Positions 1 through 19,133 of a stretch of 64,000 bases of DNA are shown one piece after another. The stretch comes from Zarea fungicola. Taxonomy: Eukaryota > Ascomycota > Sordariomycetes > Hypocreales > Cordycipitaceae. Each line of letters begins with the position of its first letter. Positions within the stretch are counted from its first letter, which is position 1. The position numbers were made by a program, and so were the translations under genes. Below the pieces are notes generated by a model. It was not told the origin of the DNA. It worked only from the letters and a program-made list of their open reading frames with translations, and made no database searches. The stretch is taken from the NCBI GenBank assembly GCA_900169235.1, contig FWCC01000164.1, positions 186,001 to 250,000 on the forward strand, written 5' to 3'.

Positions 1-863
1 TATGAGCCTAATAGAATCAAAGCAGTCGCTAAGAAGAATGGAAGCCCAATCTAGGGATCATCCCATTGCATGCCCTGACGGAGCGCTGCGGAGAGCAATG
101 GCGCAGCCAAGCAACATTGCCAGCCTAAGGCATGCTCATCGTTGTGCATACAACGCTAATGTTGGCTTCATCTGCTCCTTGCGACAGTAAGCTGCGCATA
201 CTGAACTCATACCCGCTCGTCAATGTGCCGAAGCTGACAAAAGCCATGAGAAAAGCTGAGCGATTTGCAACGACTATACCAAAGTCGCTCATTGCCATAA
301 CGGCGAGGGATGCCTGGGCAATAAAGATGTCCGTTTCAAAAACCGCTCCTGCCAGCTTTCTGTGGAGCAAGCGATACAGTGGCGGAATGATGAGAGAGGT
401 TGTGACCAAAACAATACTCCGATCAAGAGTACAAAGCAGCCCTGGCTCAGGCCATGTCCAGCCGAACCTTGACCTGACATACTGTGCGAGACCAGGGTGG
501 CTGTCTCATCAACTGTGGTGAGCATGTGATTGGGTACGAATAACGTAGCAAAGGTCTGGTTGAGCAGCAACAAGACGTCCTTTAGCAAAGGGTGCGTTGA
601 AGATAGCCTTTTTGCTATTAATTCCTGCGGATAATTTCTTCTGTAACTTGCGCGGCAGCCAGAGCCACCAACACAGTGCAAAACGTCATAAAGGACATGG
701 CCAATATGCATAGCGCGAATATGAATAGGCTACTGTCAGATAGCGTGACTGCGGTGGCAGGTATACTGGCACCTGAGGCGGTCGACTCAGCATAATTGGT
801 GCGCCACCGGTTATTCTCGAGCAACAGCGTGCGCTCGTCGACATTGGTGCAATTTTCGCTCAT
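1..863 (-). pseudogene. Degenerate MFS (drug:H+ antiporter-like) transporter, runs off left edge
   Basis: Remnant of a major facilitator superfamily transporter. An ATG at 861-863 opens a soluble N-terminus and a first membrane helix (to 618) ending in EEIIRRN, which in fungal MFS proteins lies just after helix 1. The next recognisable block, near LLKDVLLLLN, belongs to the middle of the protein, so about helices 2-6 are missing. Near 485 a frame shift is needed to continue as RFGWTWPEPG and on through the helices ending near 125. A further shift is needed near 130. A TAG stop at 51-53 stands where the family usually has Trp, directly before IGLPFFLATAL. Deletion, two shifts and a stop make a pseudogene far more likely than sequencing error. 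Family membership is inferred from remembered motif order. Confidence 0.75.
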
Positions 864-1034
864 TTCTAGCTTTTTTCTCGAACAAAGAGAGGCAGGCTAA
901 CTTTCCCGGAAATTTTGCGATCAAGGTAGGTGTTGGTGGCTCGAGTGGCCAGAGGCTTCGTCTTGGCTAAGCGCAGTAATTCATAACCGACGACCGAGTT
1001 GGCTCTACCCAACAGGCTTCAACGGTTGGCGCAG

Positions 1035-2331: not shown

Positions 2332-4533
2332 CTACCTTGAAAGTAAACCGACATGCGCCTCAATTCCAGTTCGTCCGTGTCTATAACCGTCTACAAAATC
2401 GCACATTTTTCTTTCATCGCAGCCGATTTCCCCCAGGCAACACTGGAGCAATTGCAGCTTGTCTTTGACAATGTGCAGTAGCACCCGTCTCTCCATTCCA
2501 GGTAGTAGCTGGGGACTATCGGATACTAACGCTTCCAAGTCCACAAACGCTCGCGCAAGCCCCAGCAAAAATGTCTGGTTCTTCTTTGGGTGCGCCGACC
2601 AAGACAGCAAAGAGTACACAAATGAAGTGGAATCGGCGCCGGGATGGCTCCTTGTCCCGTAGCATTGGTCTTGGTCGAGATTGGTTTCATCTGGCGTTGC
2701 ATCGAACAATTCACCCAAGCAGGTAGGAATCGGCGTGCCGCATTTTCGAACCATGGAGAGTCCAATAGAGATGACATCTTGATGATGGTCAGCACAGCGC
2801 TGCTCATCGACTCCCGCAACACCAGAACACTTCCTTTTATAACCCATATCTGCTCGTAGGAGCTGTAGACTAAGTGAGTTAAGCCTCGTTATCGTCTGAT
2901 AGGGAGAGGCCACAGTATTCTCCAACAGGCATGGGTGGGCGAACCACAGCTGAGTGAGAGCGTGAACGGAAAATGTGTCGCCAAAACGGAGAGGCGGATA
3001 GGCAGTGAATATGGGACAATTGCCGAACAAACGGGGAGGCATGGGAGCAAAAAATGGGTGCATGAAGGCAATATCCTGTCTTGGAGGTGATAATGCCTTC
3101 GCGGTAGATTCGTTGCCCCCTACACGCTTCCAGTAGACAGCAGTGTCATCGACAGCAGCCGGTAAATTGTCGATCCAAGCACAGAGCAGCCGAGTCTCCG
3201 AGTCAGTAAAAGCGCCAAACATCTTTCCTTTCCACGCGAGCTCCCGAACCAGTTGGCTTTTTTCACTATTTCCTCGGTATACCCACGGCTTGGATCCAGC
3301 CAATGCTGTGATGAAGCTGTCTCTCCATGCATTATCAACGCACCCAGCCTCTGCCGCCAGCGAGAACCAGTCCTTGATTTTCCTCTTGCCGATGAGCGCC
3401 TTGCTGTTACAATGCATCATCTTGGCTAATAGTGACTTCCTGCGCAGCATCTCGACCACCTGATCTTCGTAATCGGACACGGTGAGATCGTCGGCAAGAC
3501 TTTGAGACAGCAAATACCCGGCTTGGATTCGTTTCCATGTAGTTTGGTAGTCCAGGATCGCAGTCTCCTCAATCGTCCTCATGAAATGGATGATGGTCTC
3601 CAGCGCCATGGCAGAATGTCCCGAGTCGGCGTTGTCGATCGAAATATGCAGTAAATAATAATACGCCGAGATTCCAAACTCTGGTAGCTCTCTCGTCGCT
3701 TTGAGGTCGGACGCTGAGAGAGATTCGAAGTGGAGGTTGAACCCGAGGAGTTCAGGAAGAAACTCATTACTCCACAGGGAGATAAGAAGTTGTCCAGTTG
3801 CACTTCTCCAACTTTGTTCGTACTCCATGTCGTGTCGAGCATGTGTAAAATCAGCCGAGTCTGCGTCTGGCAGTCTAATATCGTTTTCGCGTAACAGCTC
3901 CCGAAAGACGTGAACGTGGTTCTTTTCCACGTCACCGTCTCCCAGTTCTTCGGAGAGTGTTTGCCATAGATCCCTGGTGATGTGCCGCAAGAAGAATGGC
4001 GTCGTGATCCTGTGCACGCGCGACAGCCAAGCACCATCCACAAGGTTGAGAGGTGCTCGACGCTTCAGCCAGTCCAGGGCTTCATCGCGCGAGCAAAACA
4101 GCTCTGGCCCGCCTCCGGCTAGACGACGATCGGAATATGATTCGAATTCGTCCAAAATTACCTGGCGTTGTGCTTTGAGAAGCGTCCTCAGGTGCTCTGG
4201 CGAAAATTTGTCGATTTTTAGAATGCATAACTCTTCGTCTCTGTAGTGTGCTATGGATAACCCGCTGTCGAGTAAGGAGAGGAGCAGGTCTTTGGCGGCC
4301 GGCAATATTTCAGGGAAGTCTTCAAGATTTTGCAGTTGGTGGTACATGCTCTTGTAGACCATCATTTGCTGGGACAATTTTTTTTCAGTAGTCTTGCTCC
4401 GTAGCTTCGTGGCAGGCCTTGTAGGTTGGCCGTGAGGTCCATGGCTTTTTTTACTAGCGGTCCAAGAACCTCCCAAAAGGCAAAGTATAAGTGCGCAGAA
4501 CAAGAGAGCGAGGCCAGCATTTATGTGGCTCAT
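2332..4533 (-). CDS. Membrane-anchored haem-oxygenase-like diiron oxidase (HDO; iron-containing redox enzyme family)
   Basis: Single-exon gene, 733 aa. The start is the ATG at 4531-4533, which has A at -3; upstream frame has only non-ATG codons. Residues about 6-22 form a hydrophobic signal anchor. The central part (about 190-320) matches the haem-oxygenase-like metal-oxidase fold (Pfam Haem_oxygenas_2 type): a helix with EELGDGDVEKNH, a later helix with NEFLPELLG, and a last helix with YYYLLHISIDNADSGH. His296, Asp300 and His306 are candidate iron ligands, with acidic residues near 195 and 257-261. Known HDOs use two irons and O2 for N-oxygenation, decarboxylation or C-C cleavage. The long C-terminal half is not recognised. 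It diverges from the synthetase-like gene at 5243 across 709 bp, implying co-regulation. The family is fairly sure; the substrate is unknown. Confidence 0.75.
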   Translation of the reverse strand: MSHINAGLALLFCALILCLLGGSWTASKKSHGPHGQPTRPATKLRSKTTEKKLSQQMMVYKSMYHQLQNLEDFPEILPAAKDLLLSLLDSGLSIAHYRDEELCILKIDKFSPEHLRTLLKAQRQVILDEFESYSDRRLAGGGPELFCSRDEALDWLKRRAPLNLVDGAWLSRVHRITTPFFLRHITRDLWQTLSEELGDGDVEKNHVHVFRELLRENDIRLPDADSADFTHARHDMEYEQSWRSATGQLLISLWSNEFLPELLGFNLHFESLSASDLKATRELPEFGISAYYYLLHISIDNADSGHSAMALETIIHFMRTIEETAILDYQTTWKRIQAGYLLSQSLADDLTVSDYEDQVVEMLRRKSLLAKMMHCNSKALIGKRKIKDWFSLAAEAGCVDNAWRDSFITALAGSKPWVYRGNSEKSQLVRELAWKGKMFGAFTDSETRLLCAWIDNLPAAVDDTAVYWKRVGGNESTAKALSPPRQDIAFMHPFFAPMPPRLFGNCPIFTAYPPLRFGDTFSVHALTQLWFAHPCLLENTVASPYQTITRLNSLSLQLLRADMGYKRKCSGVAGVDEQRCADHHQDVISIGLSMVRKCGTPIPTCLGELFDATPDETNLDQDQCYGTRSHPGADSTSFVYSLLSWSAHPKKNQTFLLGLARAFVDLEALVSDSPQLLPGMERRVLLHIVKDKLQLLQCCLGEIGCDERKMCDFVDGYRHGRTGIEAHVGLLSR

Positions 4534-5242
4534 TGTGTCGCGCTTGACGCTGACTTGACTGTGTAATGTCGACCAGTGAAGCAAAAGAGTGCGAGCGAAC
4601 GAATGCAGACGGAATTTCACTGAGGATAAAACGGGGTACGTAAATCGATTAGCGGGTTTAACGTATTAGTGACCTTATATGTTTGCTTTATGAATGTCTC
4701 AAAACATTTCCCCATGCCGGAGAGTCCCTTCAAAAGCCACGACACTGAATGCTGGCCTTGCTCACATCTTCCCCACAATCTGCTACCTGCAAGCAATGTG
4801 TTAGTGGATGACTAGAACAAGGTGGCGCTCGCCTGTGTACCTTAATTACTGTCTTGGTCGGCAGCTCTGCGGAACATGAGCATGGACACAAGTCGCCACG
4901 TTAGTGGCTGCTGGAGCGGCTTCGGTGGCCTTGCATTAGCTCGTCTTACAATCGGGGTTCTTGTAGAAGTGGACGCCTGAAGTTCTGCATTAACAGTTGG
5001 TTTGTGACCAGTTATGAGTCACTTTTGGCTGTAAATGGTTAACCATTCGCTTCATCGGAAGGAATTCTACGCCGAGCGGAAATACAACGTTTAACCCCAT
5101 ATCTGATCTTTGGATGTGCTCCCACGAGAAAAGAAGGATATGCGGATACACCACTCCGCCAATCTCTTGCTCATTACGTTTACCCTGCTAAAACCCGCCA
5201 GAAGGTCCTAAAAGTTTGTATAGGCGGCGAACCCAAACCATA
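4534..5242. promoter_or_regulatory. Shared divergent promoter of the HDO and synthetase-like genes
   Basis: A 709-bp gap between the start codons of two divergent genes. I see no third gene and no convincing TATA box. Joint control of the two genes is inferred from layout only. Confidence 0.5.
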
Positions 5243-6553
5243 ATGCCGAAATTCGAGGCTGAAGATTCACGCTCGGGAAGCCCTGCGTTCACTGCCGGCA
5301 GTTCAAATGAACAGCGACTTGCAGAAAAGTCACTGGACATCGGCGCCGCTACTCCCGCAGATATCTTCAAAACGTTCTCGGTCGTCCATGATCTCGCCGT
5401 CAAATTTCTGGCCCGCCGAGACTTTTGTCGCATTGCTACTCCAAGCCTGATTGGTTACATGTACCCAGGCGAGGAAGATGATCACTTTGCAGTCCCTTAC
5501 TTTGACCAAGGCGCATGGCTGGCGCCGACGGGAGAGGTGCACCTTGGAATGGCCCTCGTAAGAAAACTAGAGCGAGTGTATGACATCCATAACGTTTTCC
5601 GCCGAGAAGAAGTCGTTGACAGCCGGCATCTGACTGAAGTAAGTGTTTTCGCACCCCCTTGGAAATGTATAGAAGTTAGACTTTAGCTGACACTACAAGA
5701 ACACAAGTTTACGATGCTGGAACTTGTATTTTCTCTCAATCAAGACTGGGAGGAGATCCTGACAGTGATGGACGAATTATTAATTTTCATCATTCAATCC
5801 ATACAGCAGAACTCAAAGTATGCGGCCCTTTTCCAGAGAGCCCAGCTTCTTGGCTCTTGCGCTGAACCCTTCCAATTGGGACTTGCTGAGAAAAAGCTGT
5901 GTCGAATTTCCTTCCATGAGGCCAAGCGTGTTCTTCTAGACGTTTTGAAAATCGAATCAGGCATGGACGATGGTCTAACGTGAGTTTTTGGTCCTTTTTC
6001 TCGGCATCCACAACGAGCCACCTCGAGTGCCAGGTATGTACATGCTGATCATGTCCATGAATAGACCCATGGAAGAAGCTGCACTTGGACGTTACTTCTC
6101 GCGTGACGAAACCTACTTTGGTCAGCGTACCGACATATTTGTTATTACCCGGTTTCCAAGGCACATTCGCCCATGCAACGTGTATCCATCAAACGATGGC
6201 AAAACCACGCACTCCTTTGACGTCATCATGCGTGGGCAGGAAATCATTACCGGATGCCAGTTACTCAACTCACCTGAAGACCTGCGGGCTGCCTTTGCGA
6301 CGCGACATCATCCAATTGACCCCGACTCTCCCGGGTGGCGTCCTTTTATGGCTGCGCATGAGGCTGGTATGCCACCATGGGGAGGTTTCGGCAGTAAGAA
6401 TTCCCAACCAGCTTTGCCATATAATTGAATTTACATCGTCTAAACACTCTTATTTTAGTGGGACTTAATCGGTTTGTTCAGTCGCTTCTCGGCCTGGGCG
6501 ATATTCGTGAGACTACCTTATTTCCACGAAATGCCTCGTGTCTTCTGCCATAA
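5243..6553 (+). CDS. Stand-alone AspRS/AsnRS-like class II catalytic core (no anticodon-binding domain)
   Basis: Exons 5243-5638, 5708-5979, 6065-6393 and 6459-6553; 363 aa, all phases consistent, first ATG at 5243. The protein follows the aspartyl/asparaginyl-tRNA synthetase core: motif 1 region with IATPSL, motif 2 FRREEVVDSRHLTEFT (joined across intron 1), the MRGQEIITGCQ segment, and motif 3 GGFGMGLNRFVQ then GLGDIRETTLFPR (completed by the last exon). Real enzymes carry about 100 or more residues of OB-fold before this core; here only about 30 non-domain residues precede it. Such truncated paralogues include the archaeal AsnRS-related asparagine synthetase, which makes an aspartyl-adenylate and transfers it to ammonia rather than tRNA. 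The usual SPQLYKQ-like binding loop reads APTGEVHL, so the substrate may differ. Inferred role: ATP-dependent amide or ester formation in the cluster. Family sure, reaction unknown. Confidence 0.85.
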
Positions 6554-6659
6554 GAGCCGTGTATACATCAAGCTTAGACCTATTACTTTGACGAATCCTT
6601 AGTTTTTAATATGCTCAGCGTTTTGTAAGGCACTATTCTCCTTTGTGATAACTCTAGAT

Positions 6660-8772
6660 CTATGATCTTGTTCGGACCTTTATCGGAAGAACGTCATCTG
6701 GACTTCCCGGCCAACACTTCTCGGCCACATTACGAGGTAAAGCAGTGAAGCGATATCGTAAAATAATAGCGGCCAAGATGTGTTGCATCACTAAAACAGT
6801 CAGTACTCAGCACAAGATGCAAGGTGTTCACCGCTCCTTTCCCCTTTTTAAGACTCGTAGACTCGCAAAGTGTGGGAAAGATTTACCAGGTCAGAGGGGC
6901 AAGAGGGGAGGGGGGGACATAAGGTGCTCAGAAATGTGTGGATTTATTGACTTACTGTAATATGTCAAGTTGTTACCCACACAGACTCGCGGTCCGCTTG
7001 CAAAGGGCCAAAGGATGCCGTGGTCATCTTTTGCTTTTGTGGAGGAGAAATCAGCTTTTGCGTCCTTCTTCAACCACCGCTCGGGCTCCCATTCATTCGG
7101 GCGATCCCACTTTGTTTCATCGCGGTGAATGAACCACTGGAAAGTGTTGATTCTGGTGCCAGGTGGGATGTCATTGATGCCGGCTACGGATACAGGTTTT
7201 CCCTTTGGTGTTACTCTGGGTAGCGGCGTGCTGGTAGGTCGCATCCTCAGCGACTCGTTGATGACTGCTCTTAGATATGGCAAGGCGTCGAGCTGAGTTG
7301 CCAGTCGAGCATGGTGCCGCTCGCCGTTACTCTGACGATACTCTTGCACTGCTGCCTCGCTGTTAATGTCCGGGAGATCCAAGTTAGCCCCAGAAATTTC
7401 ATGATACAGAGTCTCCTGAGCATGCGGGTGCTGGGCCATGAACCAAAAGGTATACGCGAGAACGAGGCCTACAAAACACGACAAAATCAGTATTCAGAAC
7501 CATTGCATAGTCGCCTTACGGTGTTACATATTTGGTGTATCTTACCTAGAACTTCTCGAGATGCGGCTGTCGACATATTTTTTGTGGCATGAGTGGTGCT
7601 GCTGTTGGCGCAATGGGAAGCTCGCAGGTAAAACTTACAGATATGGTCAAACATCTCGCTGGCAACCTCCAGCCTCTTGTCGCGGCTACTCAGATGGGGC
7701 GAGTCTTTTTCCACCATCTGCTTTGTTTTAGCATAGACCACAGGCTCGTCCTCTGCCGCAATACTCGTGTTAGTGGCGGCCAGGGTTTTATCGGCTTTGG
7801 CGGACAGCTTCTCTACCCAGTCTTCAAGAAAGCGCTTTGAATTTTTGTAACTGGCTGGAATCAAATCAATATTGAATGTCTTGAGCATGGTGTACAGCCA
7901 CGGCGTCTCCTGTAGGAAGAACAATTGGTCACACATGGAGTTCTCGTAGTGCTGGCGCCAGACATCCACAGCGGCTTTTGGCTCCTTGAGATAGTTTGAA
8001 CCATTGCAGTAGCCAAATAAGAATGCACTTAGATAGTCTGCACAGATACAGTAGCTGAGGTCTAGGCCATCTATTATTCCATTTTTATTGGCCGCTCCGT
8101 CCAGACGTGGGATAAGCTTCGTCGTCAGGAGTCTCTGAGTTATTTGTTGAAGATGCTCGGACTGTTGAAGAGCCGTCTTGGAGTATAAGGATGCTGTCCT
8201 TCGGCGTCTCATACCATGGTCATGTCTATCCAGGCTTGTGAATGCGTTACGTTGACTATTTGTTGATGCGCGGTCAGTTTAATGTTGTAGGTGTTGGCAG
8301 AGTGGACTGAGAACGAAAGAGGGAAGAAGCAAGGAAAAGGCGACCAGAAAAGACAACAGAAATGAGTTGGAAAATACCCAAAATACTGAAATGGTGCGTA
8401 AAATGCCCCGGGCTTGGGGAATCCGGTGTCGTAAACTTTGCGAACACCATCATGGAAGGAATGCACGCTGAGGTCTCTAGGCCCTACTAGCAAGATGGCG
8501 CCGTGCTCCTTGTGTGCGCTCATGAGAGATGAAAGTTCTCTTCCGTTATAACGAGTCCAGATAATCCATAGCGAGCTGTATCTTGCAGACCAATGGGCGG
8601 AAGGCACAATGGATAACGGTGACCAGAAAGTAAGAACAAGGAAGTAGGATAGAGCCCACGCCAGGACTGCCCCGGCAGACAAAACCATGAACATGGTGAC
8701 TCCTAGCTGCTCACGCAAAGAAATTGCAACGTGTGTTAGCTGATAAGAATTGAGCTTTATCTTTTTGGACAT
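6660..8772 (-). CDS. Cytochrome P450 monooxygenase
   Basis: Five exons read on the minus strand: 8378-8772, 7639-8255, 7546-7566, 6956-7468 and 6660-6790; 558 aa, all junctions in phase. An N-terminal membrane helix (about residues 31-50) points to the ER. K-helix ExxR reads NESLR, the PERF region reads EPERW, and the haem loop is FASGPRVCVGNN with the axial Cys. The third exon is only 21 nt and completes the I-helix as HISASREVLGLVL. The usual acid-Thr pair there reads Glu-Val, so the oxygen-activating Thr is absent. The last exon supplies the helix after the Cys (MMQHILAAI). The gene converges on the synthetase-like gene with 106 bp between stop codons and diverges from the ABC transporter. 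Likely oxidises the cluster product; substrate and CYP family not assigned. Confidence 0.9.
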
Positions 8773-9344
8773 ACATGCTTGCACCAACTCGGTGGGAGGG
8801 CCGGATGCGGCATCAATAGTGATATAGCTTCAAAGGGTAGGGTCACTTTTGCTGTTGGCTCACTCATAGTGGTTGGATCTTGGCAAATCACAATTTCTAC
8901 AACAAAGGGCTACTGATTTTAAGCCTATTGGAAATCCATGCGGATATTGGTCTGGAAAGTACCAAATAAGCCCATTGCTGCGCGCCGAATGGACAGCTGC
9001 TGGCGCCGTCATGCAAGGCCACCCATACTAGCTTGAAAGCGTCCACTTTATTATACGTTCGAGCATATATTGACCCAAAGTTCCTTTCCCGGCGCGTCGC
9101 TATCTAACCCCTGGCTATGGTCCTCTGCTGCCCAGATTCGAAATGCCCAGATGTGCTGCGACGAGAAGTTGTGATTATTAACAAATAAAAGCCTAGCGAT
9201 AGACACCGCAGAGTGCTGAGAGGCTCTCCTCGCCCACAGGCAAAACTACCCGATTTAGTTTCATTAATTAGACGCTGTCGTTACCTTTATTGTCCATTCT
9301 CTCTGGCAATCTTGGTCAGGCTACTGCCGCCAGTCATAGCTTCC
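8773..9344. promoter_or_regulatory. Divergent promoter of the P450 and ABC transporter genes
   Basis: 572 bp between the start codons of the P450 (minus) and the ABC transporter (plus). A TATA-like CATATATTG lies near 9065. No gene is seen. Confidence 0.5.
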
Positions 9345-12300
9345 ATGAGCTGCCGCAACGACGACAGCTTCGGTCCCGTGGTCCAGCGCTGCCGTGGTGA
9401 CTTTGACTTCACCCAGAAATTCGAGAGGATTTTCTTCTGGATTGTTCCGGCAGCACTCATTATACCGCTGGCTATAGTGCGCATCTCTCAACTCAGAGGG
9501 GGGCCGCGACTTGTGGACGCTCCACGTCTGAAGTGGCTCAAGACTGTAAGTGCCTGCCCTGTTGACGTTCCTTTCGCGGATAGCTGTTCCCTCGTCGTTG
9601 CGTTGTGGCCTGTTGAAATTTAGCATTAATCATGGTGAACCAATCTATATAGACCATCATCGTCGTCTATGCTGCCCTTCAGATAGCTCTTCTGGCCTTG
9701 CACTGCGCCACCGATACCTTGGCTCTCAGCAGGTTGTCAACCGCTGGTTTAGTGCTCAGTCTCGCCACTCAGCCTTTCCTGCTGGTCACCTCGCGCTGGG
9801 AGCACGAACGAAGTAGACGACCGTCATTCTTGCTTAACTTCTATCTGGCTCTTACGCTGCTGCTCGACATCGCGCATGCGCGTACCTTTTGGCTCTCTGC
9901 GACGAGCGCGGTTGGCGGGGCCGTCTTTGCCCGCGTCTTTACCACGTCGGTTGCAGTCAAGCTGCTTCTCTGCTGCGTAGAGGCTTGGGGAAAAGGTCGA
10001 TGGACTTCCCCAGATGGCAAGGACCACAGCCCTGAAGAGTCGAGCAGTGCTTTCAGCATTGCCACGTGCTCGTGGCTTTGGCCTCTCTTCTTGCGCGGCT
10101 ACCGAAAGACGCTGGCCTTGAGCGACATCTTCGCCCTCGACCACTCGCTCAGCGCGCAGACTACTACCCCTCGTCTCTTGGAGAAACTTCAGCACCAACG
10201 CCAGGCCAAGCGCAAGAACGCCCTGCTTTGGGCCCTGATCTCGGCGTTCCCCTCGATTTTTGCGCTTCCCATCGGTCCTCGAGCGGCGTTAGTTGGCCTC
10301 CGATATGCCCAGGCTTTCCTGCTCCAGGCTCTGCTGCACAACTTGGAGCAACCTGCAACGCAACAAACGCGAAACAGCGGATACGGGCTCATCGGAGCCT
10401 GCGCTCTCACTTACGGCGGCATGGTCATGAGCACGGCATATTACGGCTACTGGAATAATAGGATACCTGCGGTCGCCCGGTCCAGTCTCTGCGCTGCGAT
10501 CTACCAGGCAAGCACTGGGATGGATGTTTCCAAAGCATCCGAAGCTGCCTCTCTGACTCTCATGAGCACGGACGTGGCGCATATCGAAACTGGTCTGTTG
10601 CAGATGCACCAGCTATGGGGCGGGCTGGCCGAAGTGGCCTTGGGAAGCTGGCTTCTCTACACCAAGCTTGGTCTTGCGTTCCTCGTCCCCTTTGGTCTCA
10701 TTATTTTCTGCACTGCTGTCCTCGGCTGGACCATGAGCTTCATTGGACATCGCCAGACTATCTGGATGGAGAAGATTGAGGAGAGGGTCGCAGTAACCGC
10801 CAGCGCCATCTCCGACATGAACAAACTTCGTATCTTGGGCGCTGTGGAACGCGTTGGCGACCTGATCCAAAAGCTTCGCGCTAACGAGATTCATGCCGGT
10901 AACCAATTCCGTAAGCTTGTTCTGGTGTCTATTGTCCTCTCATACATGTCCATGTCTCTGTCCCCGGCTATTGCATTCGCGGCTACTTCTAGGGACTTCA
11001 ACACCTCGACACTATTTGTGTCTGTTTCCTTTATCATGCTGTTTTCCAGTCCTCTTCTCAGTCTATTTCAAGCCTTGCCAGTTTTTTTTGCTGCGCTCGC
11101 GAGCTTCCAGCGCATTGACCTATATCTATCGCACCAGCCTCGAAAGGAATTTCGCACCCTGCAGCATGGTATCGAAGGCAAAAGCAGTATTAACTGTAGC
11201 GACAAAGATAACGGTTTTCAGGGCCAATGTTCCGCTACCGTTAGCTTTCACAGCGAGAAGTTGGACGGTAGCCTGCCCAGTCTAATTTCCGAGAGTGCAT
11301 TTAGCTTGAAAAATGCTTCATTCGGCTGGGACGAAGGTAAAATGATCCTTCAGAACCTCAATCTCATCTTACCTAAAGGCAAGTTTAGCATAGTTTTTGG
11401 GTCTGTTGCATCTGGGAAGTCGACATTATGCCATGGCCTGCTGGGCGAAGTACCCTTTGCAACTGGTGAGGTCAACGTTAACCTATCGGGGTCTGCTATC
11501 GGCTACTGTGCACAGACGGCATCCTTGCCAAGCGGGACAATCAAAGAAAATATCGTCGGCTTTAGTCCGTTTTCCCAAAACCGGTACGATTCTGTCATTG
11601 CAGCGGCTATTCTAACCCCAGACATATCTCAGCTCTCTATGAGCCAAGACACAAACATCGCAGAACTAAGTGGCGGTCAGAAGCAGCGCGTCGCGCTCGC
11701 CCGAGCTCTATATCTCGAAACTGACACTACGCTTTTCGATGACGCACTCAGTGGTCTCGACATGAACACGGAGGCAAGCATCTTCCACAATATCTTTGGT
11801 CCTGCCGGACTTGTTCGCCAAAGAGGAGCCACTGCCGTATATTTTACTAGCTCAGCACGGCACCTTGCCTTCGCAGATAATATTGTGCGCCTTGACAAGT
11901 CTGGCATACTCGTGTCTCATGAAGATGGAGAGCTCCCGTTGGATGGTGGCAAGACAGTGTCTCCCATCGAAGCGAATATAACCATTAAAACAGGTTCACG
12001 TCAAGAGGGGAGCATTGGTACTCCTACCGACAAAACCGTGATGGGCAGTGCCGATACTGGTGGAAGTCAAAGTGATTGCAATACCGCTGAAGATGAGGCA
12101 AGAACGACGGGGGATTTCACAATCTACATGTTTTACTTGCACAACACCACCGTGCTCTTAAGTGCGCTTGTCATAGCTTGTAGCATTTTTACTGGGTTTT
12201 GCACCAATTTCTCCAATGTCTGGCTTTCTTACTGGGCTCAAGATTCCTTTGACCAACAAAATTCATTCTACTTGGGCATCTTTGGAGCGCTACGCAGCTC

Positions 12301-14103
12301 AGAGCTTCTTGGTATCGGTGGCGCCTCAGCTGCCCTACTAATCGGAGTCGTGACCTCGACCGGAACCAATCTTCACTCTCGTGCCATCAGAACCGTCATG
12401 CAAGCTCCGTTGAGCTTCTTTACCAATACTGACGCGGGCACAGTGACGACATTGTTCTCTCAAGATATAACTATTGTTGACGGAGAGCTGCCAGTTTCGA
12501 TGCTGAATGCTTTGCTTGTCTTGTTTGATCTTCTTGGCAACTTTTTTGTCATCGCCGTCGCTTCGCCATTCATTATTATCAGCTATCCAGTTCTCGCGGC
12601 CATTCTTTATCTCATTCAAATGTTCTATCTCCGAACTTCACGACAGCTGCGGCTGTTGGATCTAGAAGCCAAGGCCCCATTATAGTGAGTTCATTGTATT
12701 GAATTAACTGCTTTGAGAACAAGGTCTAACAATCGTCCCTCACAGCTCACACTTTCTCAACACAATCAACGGGCTAGCTACCATCCGCGCTCATAAAATG
12801 GAAGTACAAAACATCTCCAAGTACAACAAAATTCTCAACGACTCACAGCGGCCGGCGTATTTTTTGGCCATGATTCAGCTGTGGCTCTCCACTATTCTCT
12901 TGGTTCTAGTGGGAGTGGTAGCCGTCATCATTACGACCCTCGCAGTGCATCTCAGGACAGACTCTGGATTTACGGGCTCAAGCTTTGTGACGCTACTCAC
13001 TCTATCATCCGCCATATCGGAGTTGATGCAGTCCTATACCCTGGTGGAAACATCTATTGGAGCCGTCAACCGCCTTCGAGCATTTAGCCGAAACACCAAG
13101 CCAGAGAACGAAAACGACGCTGATGCGCCCGTTCCTGAGCACTGGCCCGCCAACGGAGACATATATTTGGCCGCCGTGTCGGCTTCTTACTGGTATGATA
13201 TGTTGGCAAAAACTCTTTGACAAGCTTCATTTGTCTCTTTGGAGGGGGGGCTCTATGCTAACATGAGTTGCACCAGCGTCAAAAAAGGTACTGAGAGGGG
13301 CACGGAGGCTCTCGCCTTGAAGGACCTCTCCATCACGATTCAGCCGGGCGAAAAGATTGGTGTTTGTGGCCGGACAGGCAGGTGAGTTGTTTTTTTACGA
13401 CGCAAGCCAAGCCATTTTTTTCTTGCACAATATTAACAATGGTAGCGGGAAATCTTCTCTCATGATGCTGCTTCTGCGCATTCTCGATCCTTTGCCGTCA
13501 CAATCTTCAGTCATTCAAATAGGCGGCATAGACCTCAACCGAGTAAATCGCACAGTGGTCAGGCAGCGAATCATTTCCATTCCGCAGGAGCCCATCTTCC
13601 TCCCGGGGAGCGCGACTATCAAAGACAACCTTGACTACCTCGGTGAGGCGGCGGTTGACGACTGTATATCGGTGCTGGCCACCACGCGACTTGACGAGTT
13701 TGTACGCGAGTCGGGTGGGATTGATGCCGTCATGAACGCCCAGCAGCTTAGCTCTGGCCAAAAGCAGCTCTTCACCCTCGCTCGGGCCCTGCTTCGGTGT
13801 AGAGTCGGGGAGAAGAAGAATGCCAGTGGCGCAGGAGGCCTTTTGCTCATTGATGAGCTCAACACGCGACTGGACGAAGAAACGGACTCTTTGATTCAGG
13901 ATATAGTAGAGACTGAATTTTCTGCCTACACAGTCGTCATGATTGCCCATAATCTGGGCATGGTGATGAATATGTGTAACAGGGTGCTTGTACTGGACCG
14001 GGGCGAGCTTGTCGAGGTGGGTGATCCAAAGACGCTGGTGGCGTCTGAGCAGAGTCACTTCAGCAAACTTTATCATAGCGTTATAGCTGAGGAGGCTACC
14101 TGA
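9345..14103 (+). CDS. ABCC-type (MRP-like) full ABC transporter
   Basis: Exons 9345-9545, 9653-12684, 12746-13192, 13277-13381 and 13446-14103; 1480 aa. Architecture is N-terminal extra helices, TMD1, NBD1, TMD2, NBD2. NBD1 has Walker A GSVASGKST, signature LSGGQKQR and Walker B TLFDDALSGLD. NBD2 has Walker A GRTGSGKSS (restored across the 63-bp last intron), signature LSSGQKQ and LLLIDE. As in many ABCC proteins NBD1 is degenerate: Asp stands for the catalytic Glu, and the H-loop His reads Ser (FTSSARHL). NBD2 keeps the His (IAHNL). The acceptor of intron 3 could be 13267 or 13276; I prefer 13276 because a CTAAC branch site lies only a few bases before 13267. Plasma or vacuolar membrane exporter, probably for the cluster product or self-protection. 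Confidence 0.9.
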
Positions 14104-16918: not shown

Positions 16919-17749
16919 CTAGTAGGGATGCAGCTTCCGACGGTGGCTGAGCAGATTGTCTTGCCGGCTAAAGATGCGACCGCAAATGTTACAGACAATG
17001 GATGGTGCGTGGCTACTCTCGTGCCTCCTGCGGTCCTTTGCGGTCGCAAAGGCAACCAAACAGCCTTTGCCCGCGGGTGTGCGGCATGTATATGTTCGCA
17101 GGTGCAGATGGAAGTGCTTGTTGATGTCGCACTGCCGCGTGAAGAGCACCCTCGACGTGCACGCCGGGTGCGGGCACCGCTGGGGCGTGATGGCGCCGTT
17201 GGCGTTGGTGGCGGAAGCAGCGTCGTCATCGGACGCGCTGCTCGACCAGCCCAGCTCCGAGGTGAGTGAGTCGGCGGCCGAGCCATGGCTTTCGGCCTCG
17301 AGTGAGTAGGGATCCGAAGACTGGGTGCTGAACTGCGGCGACGGGATGGCGGCGGTGCTCAGGCTAGGCAGCGGCGGCAGCCATTCTGAGCCACCCAGTG
17401 GGGTGTCCGGGAACCAGTCATTGGCTCCGACGCACGTAGACAGGAACAGCGAGCGCTCGCACGACCCCAGAAAGTGAAGCTCGGGCCAGACCGTGTGTTG
17501 TGCCATGCTGTGGCATGACGCCGTCGTATCAAAAGTACCAAGGATCGTGGGCGCCGCGGCTGCGCGTCTGGAGGACTGGGCACCTGCGGGCAGTTCCATG
17601 AGGTTAAACTTCCAGGCGTGCTCTTCAAAAGAACCTGTGGCGCCATGGAGATTCTCAAAGTACGATTGCATGTCACCATATATGTCAACGAGAGACTCTG
17701 GAGCGGGCACTGGCAGGTTGCTACTGGCGAATTCCGTGTAGGAATTCAT
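16919..17749 (-). CDS. C2H2 zinc-finger transcription factor
   Basis: Single exon, 276 aa. The start ATG at 17747-17749 has A at -3; frame upstream contains no other good ATG. The N-terminal two thirds are low-complexity, Ser-, Ala- and acid-rich, as in activation regions (SSSASDDDAASA). The last about 85 residues hold Cys/His pairs forming about three fingers: CPHPACTSR...HFHLH, CRTPAGKGC...RRRH, and the canonical CNICGRIFSRQDNLLSHRRKLH. Likely nuclear DNA-binding protein. A TG microsatellite (about 17797-17815) lies in its 5' leader. It is the nearest regulator to the HDO/synthetase/P450/ABC block, about 2.8 kb beyond it, so it may control that block; this is inference from position only. 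Confidence 0.85.
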   Translation of the reverse strand: MNSYTEFASSNLPVPAPESLVDIYGDMQSYFENLHGATGSFEEHAWKFNLMELPAGAQSSRRAAAAPTILGTFDTTASCHSMAQHTVWPELHFLGSCERSLFLSTCVGANDWFPDTPLGGSEWLPPLPSLSTAAIPSPQFSTQSSDPYSLEAESHGSAADSLTSELGWSSSASDDDAASATNANGAITPQRCPHPACTSRVLFTRQCDINKHFHLHLRTYTCRTPAGKGCLVAFATAKDRRRHESSHAPSIVCNICGRIFSRQDNLLSHRRKLHPY

Positions 17750-19133
17750 GCTGACCTCGGAACTGCGTATCGCTGAGCTTGAGAGGTGGGAGTTTGGTAT
17801 GTGTGTGTGTGTGCGTGTATAAAAGAGAGAGAAGTAGACAAGATATGAGCAGAGTAAAGTTTGAGTCCTCAAAGTCTTGGTAGGGAATTCTCGAGCATTA
17901 AAAGGGTGACGGCTTGCCTACCGCCCAGGATCCAACCCATCCCAGGCTCTTGGATCAACGCAGATCGATGGAAGCCCCCACAATGGAGCAACTCCCATCT
18001 TTGCATGATAAAGCTGCCACGATGGAGTGCTATGGTCCAGGGCTATACTGGACCGCGTCCATTGACATACGTAATGTGAGGCTTACTGTAAGCGCAAAAT
18101 AGATCGCGTGCCTGGAAACGGAAATTGTTGCTAGTAATTGCGGGTCGAGCTTACAATTGGTGATTGCAAAGCTCACTACACAGTAGAAAGAAGAACTGTG
18201 AGGGCAAATGAATGGAACATTCTATTCCTTACTCTTCGATGAAAGAAATAATCTAGCTAGGAATATCTATCTCTATTCATAAGTAGAGTCCTTTTTTTAT
18301 AACGTCTTTTTCTAGCTATTTATTTATGTTTTATTATTAGACCTCCTTGTTGATTCTTTGGCAGTTTTCTGTGGCTGGTAGTCACACACCATCCTCGGCA
18401 ATAGCAATTCAAAGTGCCGGACCATGTACCCGACTTGTGTAGAACCTCATTGCCGAGTGTATCTCGGAACAATAAAGGGTTACATGGATTAAGCGGCCGG
18501 CCACTACTTCATTCAGTAATGAGTCCTTTTTATGAAGACGGCTTGCGGCTGAGTGGAAACTTAAGATTACAGTCTAGTGTGGAGGCATGTGGGGAGTATC
18601 ATGACAGGGCGCATATCCATACTGCCACCCACTGTACTTGTAATAACTCTATCTATCATTGGAGAGGACTTTTTCCTCTCCAGTACACATTACGCCACCG
18701 TCTCGTCTTTTATTCGCCGTCTTCTAGCACGTGATGTGACATGAATCGCGACACCTTGGAAGCAAGAGGGCACTGGGAACAAGAGAATAGACATGGAAAC
18801 AAGGAAGGACTGGGCCACGAAATGTTTTCAACGGCTTTATCTCTGTATATTCTCACACCTGGCGGCCATTTTTCCTTGAAACAGGTTAACCCTCTCGTTT
18901 TCCACGCATAGTTGTTTCGGTAGACAGGCTGAGCCTGGTTTCAAGGCCTCACAATTCAACCGTGGAAAATATAAATCTTGATTTTTTTTCAAGAGAAAAG
19001 GATAAAAGCGTAGATGTAGTGTTTTTATATTTAAAACAGTTAATTGATCTGTAGGTGTGCGTACCACGAGATGGCTACCACCTGAAGTAGTATCACGGCA
19101 AAGCTCGGCAATGGTGTCGTCTCTTACAGTATT
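17750..19133. other. Intergenic with dispersed repeat copy B, no gene
   Basis: Carries the promoter of the C2H2 gene, repeat copy B (18133-18345) and the 3' flank of the MFS transporter. No coding signal was seen. Confidence 0.6.
18133..18345 (+). repeat. Dispersed AT-rich repeat, copy B (pairs with 1035)
   Basis: Same family and same orientation as 1035-1250, with shared ordered blocks GGTCGAGCTTA, GCTCACTACACAG and CTAGCTAGGAA. A TGTTGCTAGTAATTG just before it could be an LTR start, but no matching 3' end was found. Confidence 0.7.

Follow-up and report, generated by a model that had tools for sequence, protein, structure and literature searches.

The locus and the question it raises

A 64,000-nucleotide stretch of Zarea fungicola DNA (the window: positions 186001-250000 of contig C97, in an assembly of 43.1 Mb and 456 contigs) raises the question of why a fungus would keep a bare aspartyl-tRNA synthetase (AspRS)-type catalytic core next to a heme-oxygenase-like diiron oxygenase (HDO), a cytochrome P450 and an ABCC-type exporter. 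A preliminary description had read these four genes as one pathway from aspartate to an exported small molecule, in a cluster free of nonribosomal peptide synthetase (NRPS) genes. Our analysis supports a different unit, namely a conserved pair formed by the HDO and a core whose amino-acid pocket has been re-specified, an unusual fungal module. That is, the initial observation was good and its interpretation half right: the biosynthetic character of the locus and the pairing of an HDO with a synthetase-derived enzyme are supported, and the four-gene aspartate pathway without an NRPS is not.

Spliced gene models were built from the sequence, and domains were assigned with Pfam. In these models the reading frames and splice sites of all four genes are intact, and those of the core, the HDO and the P450 agree with alignments of their relatives. 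The pair comprises the following features.

2332-4533, minus strand: HDO gene, single exon, 733 aa, PF14518
4534-5242: divergent intergenic region between HDO and core, 709 bp
5243-6553, plus strand: AspRS-type core, exons 5243-5638, 5708-5979, 6065-6393 and 6459-6553, 363 aa

Conservation of the HDO and the core

The core was queried against about 5.8 billion proteins, which yielded 74 matches; the HDO yielded 748, of which the best 120 were listed and 119 entered the comparison. A shared contig was deduced from exactly equal contig sizes of core and HDO entries. By this measure, 18 of the 74 core entries (12 among the first 36) lie on the same contig as one of the 119 listed HDO entries, and in five of these 18 the locus tags agree (TgHK011_003447/003449, PFICI_10845/10847, TrVGV298_006285/006287, LQ340_000632/000634 and PWT90_06034/06031). 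Core and HDO both occur in Colletotrichum truncatum (68% and 60% identity). In Podospora, QC764_503120 and PODANS_5_3110 hint at direct adjacency, but these tags belong to two different species. The check for co-occurrence in other fungi that had been suggested beforehand is thus positive.

All of the first 36 core matches contain PF00152 only; fungal species names are attached to 35, and the lengths fall within 361-517 aa except for one match of 229 aa. Trichoderma, Colletotrichum, Podospora, Pestalotiopsis, Coniella, Periconia and Dothidotthia are among the genera matched. The 35 matches P0037-P0071 are short fragments (230-312 aa), and one comes from a Diploschistes lichen assembly. The pair is therefore retained in fungi of several genera, in one lichen assembly and in metagenome-type contigs, and the P450 does not accompany it there. 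Database entries label the core and the HDO mostly as aspartate-tRNA ligase or hypothetical protein, and no report of the pair was found in the open-licence literature searched.

A changed amino-acid pocket in the AspRS-derived core

PF00152 (E 4.9e-43) is the sole Pfam family above its cut-off in the core protein, which carries the hallmarks of a class II core, i.e., the motif 2 and motif 3 arginines and the ATP/Mg residues (R120, D275, E282 and R337). These are kept in 35/35, 33/33, 33/33 and 27/28 of the relatives that reach each position. The side-chain pocket is different. In yeast AspRS, Lys306 (K306) and Arg485 (R485) bind the aspartate side chain. Their equivalents, and an intron discussed below, map as follows.

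5543-5545, plus strand: codon of Leu101, equivalent of the Asp-binding Lys (K306)
6261-6263, plus strand: codon of Leu289, equivalent of the Asp-binding Arg (R485)
5639-5707, plus strand: intron in the core gene, at the same codon boundary (between TE and FT, phase 0) as in the cytosolic AspRS gene of this genome

Leucine occupies the first position in 35/35 and the second in 33/33 of the relatives that reach it, and the Lys and Arg are present in all three AspRS-type paralogues of the same genome. Aspartate, the acid that the preliminary description had expected to be activated, was therefore rejected as the most likely substrate, since leucine replaces both of its side-chain ligands wherever the position is present.

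No PF01336, the OB-fold anticodon-binding domain, was found in the window core, and only one of the 32 rows in the core alignment contains it, that row being the outgroup. The earlier term 'bare core' is accurate: there is no recognizable OB exon upstream. An N-terminal exon missed in the gene model was rejected by tblastn with ten relatives, nine of which matched the core from window position 5282-5309 onward. The tenth (P0005) aligned from 5123 across an in-frame stop at 5189-5191; a relic of a lost N-terminal part, with no intact exon, is possible upstream. Nor is there a DUF2156 fusion, because PF00152 alone lies above cut-off and the gene stops after the core.

Derivation of the core from cytosolic AspRS is well supported. 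The common intron position and a biosynthetic neighborhood would also fit a self-resistance duplicate, i.e., an insensitive target of an AspRS inhibitor made by the cluster. A protein without an anticodon domain and with neither of the Asp side-chain ligands should, however, be unable to replace AspRS, for which the genome has a separate cytosolic gene, and we consider self-resistance very unlikely.

Another possibility is that the core is a stand-alone enzyme of the asparagine synthetase A (AS-A) type, or otherwise one that activates Asp or Asn and gives the adenylate to ammonia or an amine, as first proposed. AspRS provides the nearest profiles and folds, and bare-core AS-A enzymes are known (PMC9437257). 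The cytosolic asparaginyl-tRNA synthetase (AsnRS) of this genome, moreover, matches the core in two pocket positions, with Leu in place of K306 and Glu in place of D342, which speaks for this alternative. Because of that identity Asn is excluded solely by the lost Arg, which the genome's AsnRS keeps at the R485 position and which is Leu in all 33 relatives reaching it; judging from these residues, Asn is the less firmly excluded of the two. The core scores at best 36.5 bits against an AS-A model cut-off of 309 (NCBIfam AsnA models), far below it, and at best 173.7 bits against an AspRS cut-off of 353 (NF003483), the AspRS models being bacterial and archaeal. On balance, we regard an Asp- or Asn-activating enzyme as unlikely.

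Other synthetase-like genes were noticed in the same genome. A further AsnRS/AsnA-like core that stands alone, about 414 aa long and the second of its kind here, is encoded at C309:95001-98500. Two genes on C85 and C78 are of the AspRS-DUF2156 (ErdS-like) type, with the Asp-binding Lys and Arg retained and DUF2156 recognized by eye.

Features of the HDO

The HDO protein has a heme-oxygenase-like helical fold with the PF14518 signature (E 4.8e-30) and is the one PF14518 match found in the Z. fungicola genome. It begins with a hydrophobic helix, and is probably membrane-tethered; the two domains that follow are listed here.

3487-4389, minus strand: HDO (N-oxygenase-type) domain, model residues 51-351
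2344-3012, minus strand: second heme-oxygenase-like helical domain, tentative, model residues 510-732

The candidate iron ligands are E196, H206, E261/E270, H296, D300 and H306 (coding-sequence numbering). E196, H206, E270, H296, D300 and H306 are identical in 52/52 aligned sequences. Compared with the pattern of SznF (E-x9-H, E, H-x3-D-x2-H), the E-x9-H, E270 and H-x3-D elements are present in all 52, and the final His sits six residues after the Asp (D+6) instead of three (D+3). The best Foldseek match of the structural model is SznF (6vzy_B, E 0.014, probability 1.00). The fold is predicted to be of the N-oxygenase type.

These features also bear on whether the pair could be a relic that catalyzes nothing, having decayed or turned regulatory. 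In favor of this reading, 34 of 36 relatives are longer than the window core, and the core's end branch exceeds that of its sister (0.43 vs 0.13). Set against this are the intact frames and splice sites, the retained ATP-site residues of the core and the invariance of the six HDO residues, which make a relic extremely unlikely.

Elsewhere in the HDO family, Sclerotinia SS1G_07963 appears in an infection-transcriptome table (PMC5372324) under the label of an ABC transporter with iron-containing redox enzyme; its entries in the final two columns are 4.0 and 8.5. Two loci with bacterial HDO relatives (L019:7704-15600 and L020:7794-15604) have a gene run in common, headed by the HDO and continuing with a small methyltransferase, a Mur ligase (561 aa), an S51 peptidase (cyanophycinase-like) and a cyanophycin-synthetase-like ligase.

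Genes around the pair

To the right of the core lie the two other genes of the original set.

6660-8772, minus strand: cytochrome P450, exons 8378-8772, 7639-8255, 7546-7566, 6956-7468 and 6660-6790, 558 aa
9345-14103, plus strand: ABCC-type exporter, exons 9345-9545, 9653-12684, 12746-13192, 13277-13381 and 13446-14103, 1480 aa

Pfam assigns PF00067 (E 8.2e-40) to the P450, and PF00664 and PF00005 to the exporter, of which two ABC pieces were scanned. The content, order and strands (-,+,-,+) of the four genes are as initially described, and the gaps of 709, 106 and 572 bp are exact. A conserved four-gene set is not what we find. The P450 family is coherent (Pochonia at 66%, Xylaria, Nemania, Aspergillus, Penicillium, Trichoderma), but none of its 42 listed entries equals any listed core or HDO entry in contig size. 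With no such match and another species distribution, the P450 looks local, and the conserved unit found is the pair. To the right of the exporter, a C2H2 zinc-finger protein (window 16919-17872, minus strand) is a possible cluster regulator.

The absence of NRPS and polyketide synthase (PKS) genes holds inside the 64-kb window, but not on the contig. An NRPS lies to its left at C97:142731-182558 on the minus strand, as three overlapping open frames with 11 A-domain motifs, 11 T-domain motifs and two epimerase-type motifs, that is, 11 modules; Pfam on a 2184-aa stretch finds AMP-binding, condensation and PP-binding matches, two of each. The NRPS start precedes window position 1 by about 3.4 kb. 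A PKS with ketoacyl synthase and acyltransferase (one piece scanned with Pfam) is found at C97:116156-123392. A cluster finder run on the complete contig should therefore pick out this region, contrary to the expectation that ordinary finders would miss it. In the interval between NRPS and window, at about 183.2-184.5 kb of C97, frames of a thioredoxin-reductase-like (or GliT-like) flavoenzyme with a CLFCHG motif were recognized by eye; the one exon scanned gave no Pfam match. Partial frames resembling a major facilitator superfamily (MFS) transporter, also seen by eye, occupy window 1-870 (minus strand) and run on to the left.

With the NRPS, P450, exporter and these thioredoxin-reductase-like and MFS-like frames all within about 57 kb, the four genes might serve the 11-module NRPS cluster simply as accessories for tailoring and transport, the pair having no role of its own. 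We hold this possible but rather unlikely, given that the pair is kept across several genera, a lichen assembly and metagenome-type contigs and is unaccompanied there by the P450.

Proposed role of the pair

The reading we favor, to which we give nearly an even chance, is that the HDO and the core are a conserved two-gene natural-product module combining N-oxygenation with adenylation by a re-specified AspRS core, whose product would be an unusual building block with an oxidized nitrogen. The HDO, with iron and O2, would N-oxygenate an amine-bearing substrate of the amino-acid type. The core would use ATP to adenylate an amino acid other than Asp, probably a neutral or hydrophobic one. The aminoacyl group would then go not to tRNA(Asp) but to a small molecule, namely a hydroxylamine or an amine. 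In Z. fungicola the module, together with the P450, the exporter and the MFS-like and thioredoxin-reductase-like genes, may provide or modify one of the units in the NRPS peptide. The identity and intactness of the genes, the conservation of the pair, the pocket change and the NRPS neighbor are observed; substrates, order of steps, acceptor and NRPS link we infer.

Beyond the AsnRS resemblance noted above, several observations weigh against this proposal. About 5.8 kb separate the NRPS start from the end of the HDO. HDO matches (748, 120 listed) far exceed core matches (74), and among those listed are Sclerotinia, Talaromyces, Fusarium avenaceum and others with no named core match. In two Rhypophila genomes (V8F06 and V8F33) separate contigs carry the listed core and HDO, and at least five fungi have one or two other genes between them. 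The third-helix spacing of the HDO is H-x3-D-x5-H, as opposed to H-x3-D-x2-H in SznF; plain Foldseek with the HDO model returned no PDB match at E ≤ 0.001; and a common fold proves no function.

A more specific version of the two-gene module concerns fungal N-O or N-N bond formation. Here, the HDO would N-hydroxylate one amino acid, the core would activate a second, non-acidic one and, with no tRNA involved, esterify the hydroxylamine; rearrangement of this ester by the second heme-oxygenase-like domain would give a unit of the hydrazine or hydroxamate type. This scheme is speculative and, we believe, improbable. If true, a eukaryote would have evolved independently, from a duplicated cytosolic AspRS, its own equivalent of the bacterial cupin/MetRS-like hydrazine synthases. 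The MetRS-like domain of those enzymes is of class I.

A duplicated genetic-code synthetase that has no anticodon reader, has a new pocket and accompanies an N-oxygenase-type HDO in many ascomycetes would represent a biosynthetic module widespread among fungi. Cluster finders anchored on PKS, NRPS or terpene synthase genes would detect it only where one of these happens to adjoin, and database labels hide both genes. Synteny, the Leu/Leu pocket signature and the H-x3-D-x5-H signature of the HDO offer handles for genome mining, useful for testing fungal N-O/N-N bond formation.

Comparison with known systems

Among the AspRS paralogues tabled in PMC9437257, namely AS-A/AS-AR and ErdS, the sterol aspartyltransferase ErdS (AspRS-DUF2156) is likewise a fungal AspRS paralogue used outside translation, as given in that table. 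The ErdS-type copies of this genome differ from the window core in holding the Asp-binding Lys and Arg and a C-terminal half. AS-A is similar in being a bare AspRS-type catalytic core that forms an adenylate without tRNA (same table, PMC9437257); unlike AS-A, which activates Asp, the window core has no Asp ligands and scores far under the AS-A cut-off.

The window HDO is only 10-17% identical to the N-oxygenase HDOs SznF, RohS and HrmI, from which it is set apart by its H-x3-D-x5-H third helix, the extra C-terminal domain (tentatively heme-oxygenase-like), the N-terminal hydrophobic helix and the lack of a cupin; no cupin match was found in the proteins of the four genes scanned with Pfam.

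A bacterial precedent for this logic is given by cupin/MetRS-like hydrazine synthases acting with an N-hydroxylase (Spb38/Spb40, s56-p1; azaserine azs cluster), as described in PMC10445470. By analogy, the pair would likewise combine an N-oxygenase with an aminoacyl-tRNA synthetase-like enzyme for small-molecule chemistry, not translation. Those systems are bacterial, with a MetRS-like domain fused to a cupin and another N-hydroxylase, whereas the present pair is fungal, its synthetase class II and AspRS-derived, and its oxygenase of the HDO type.
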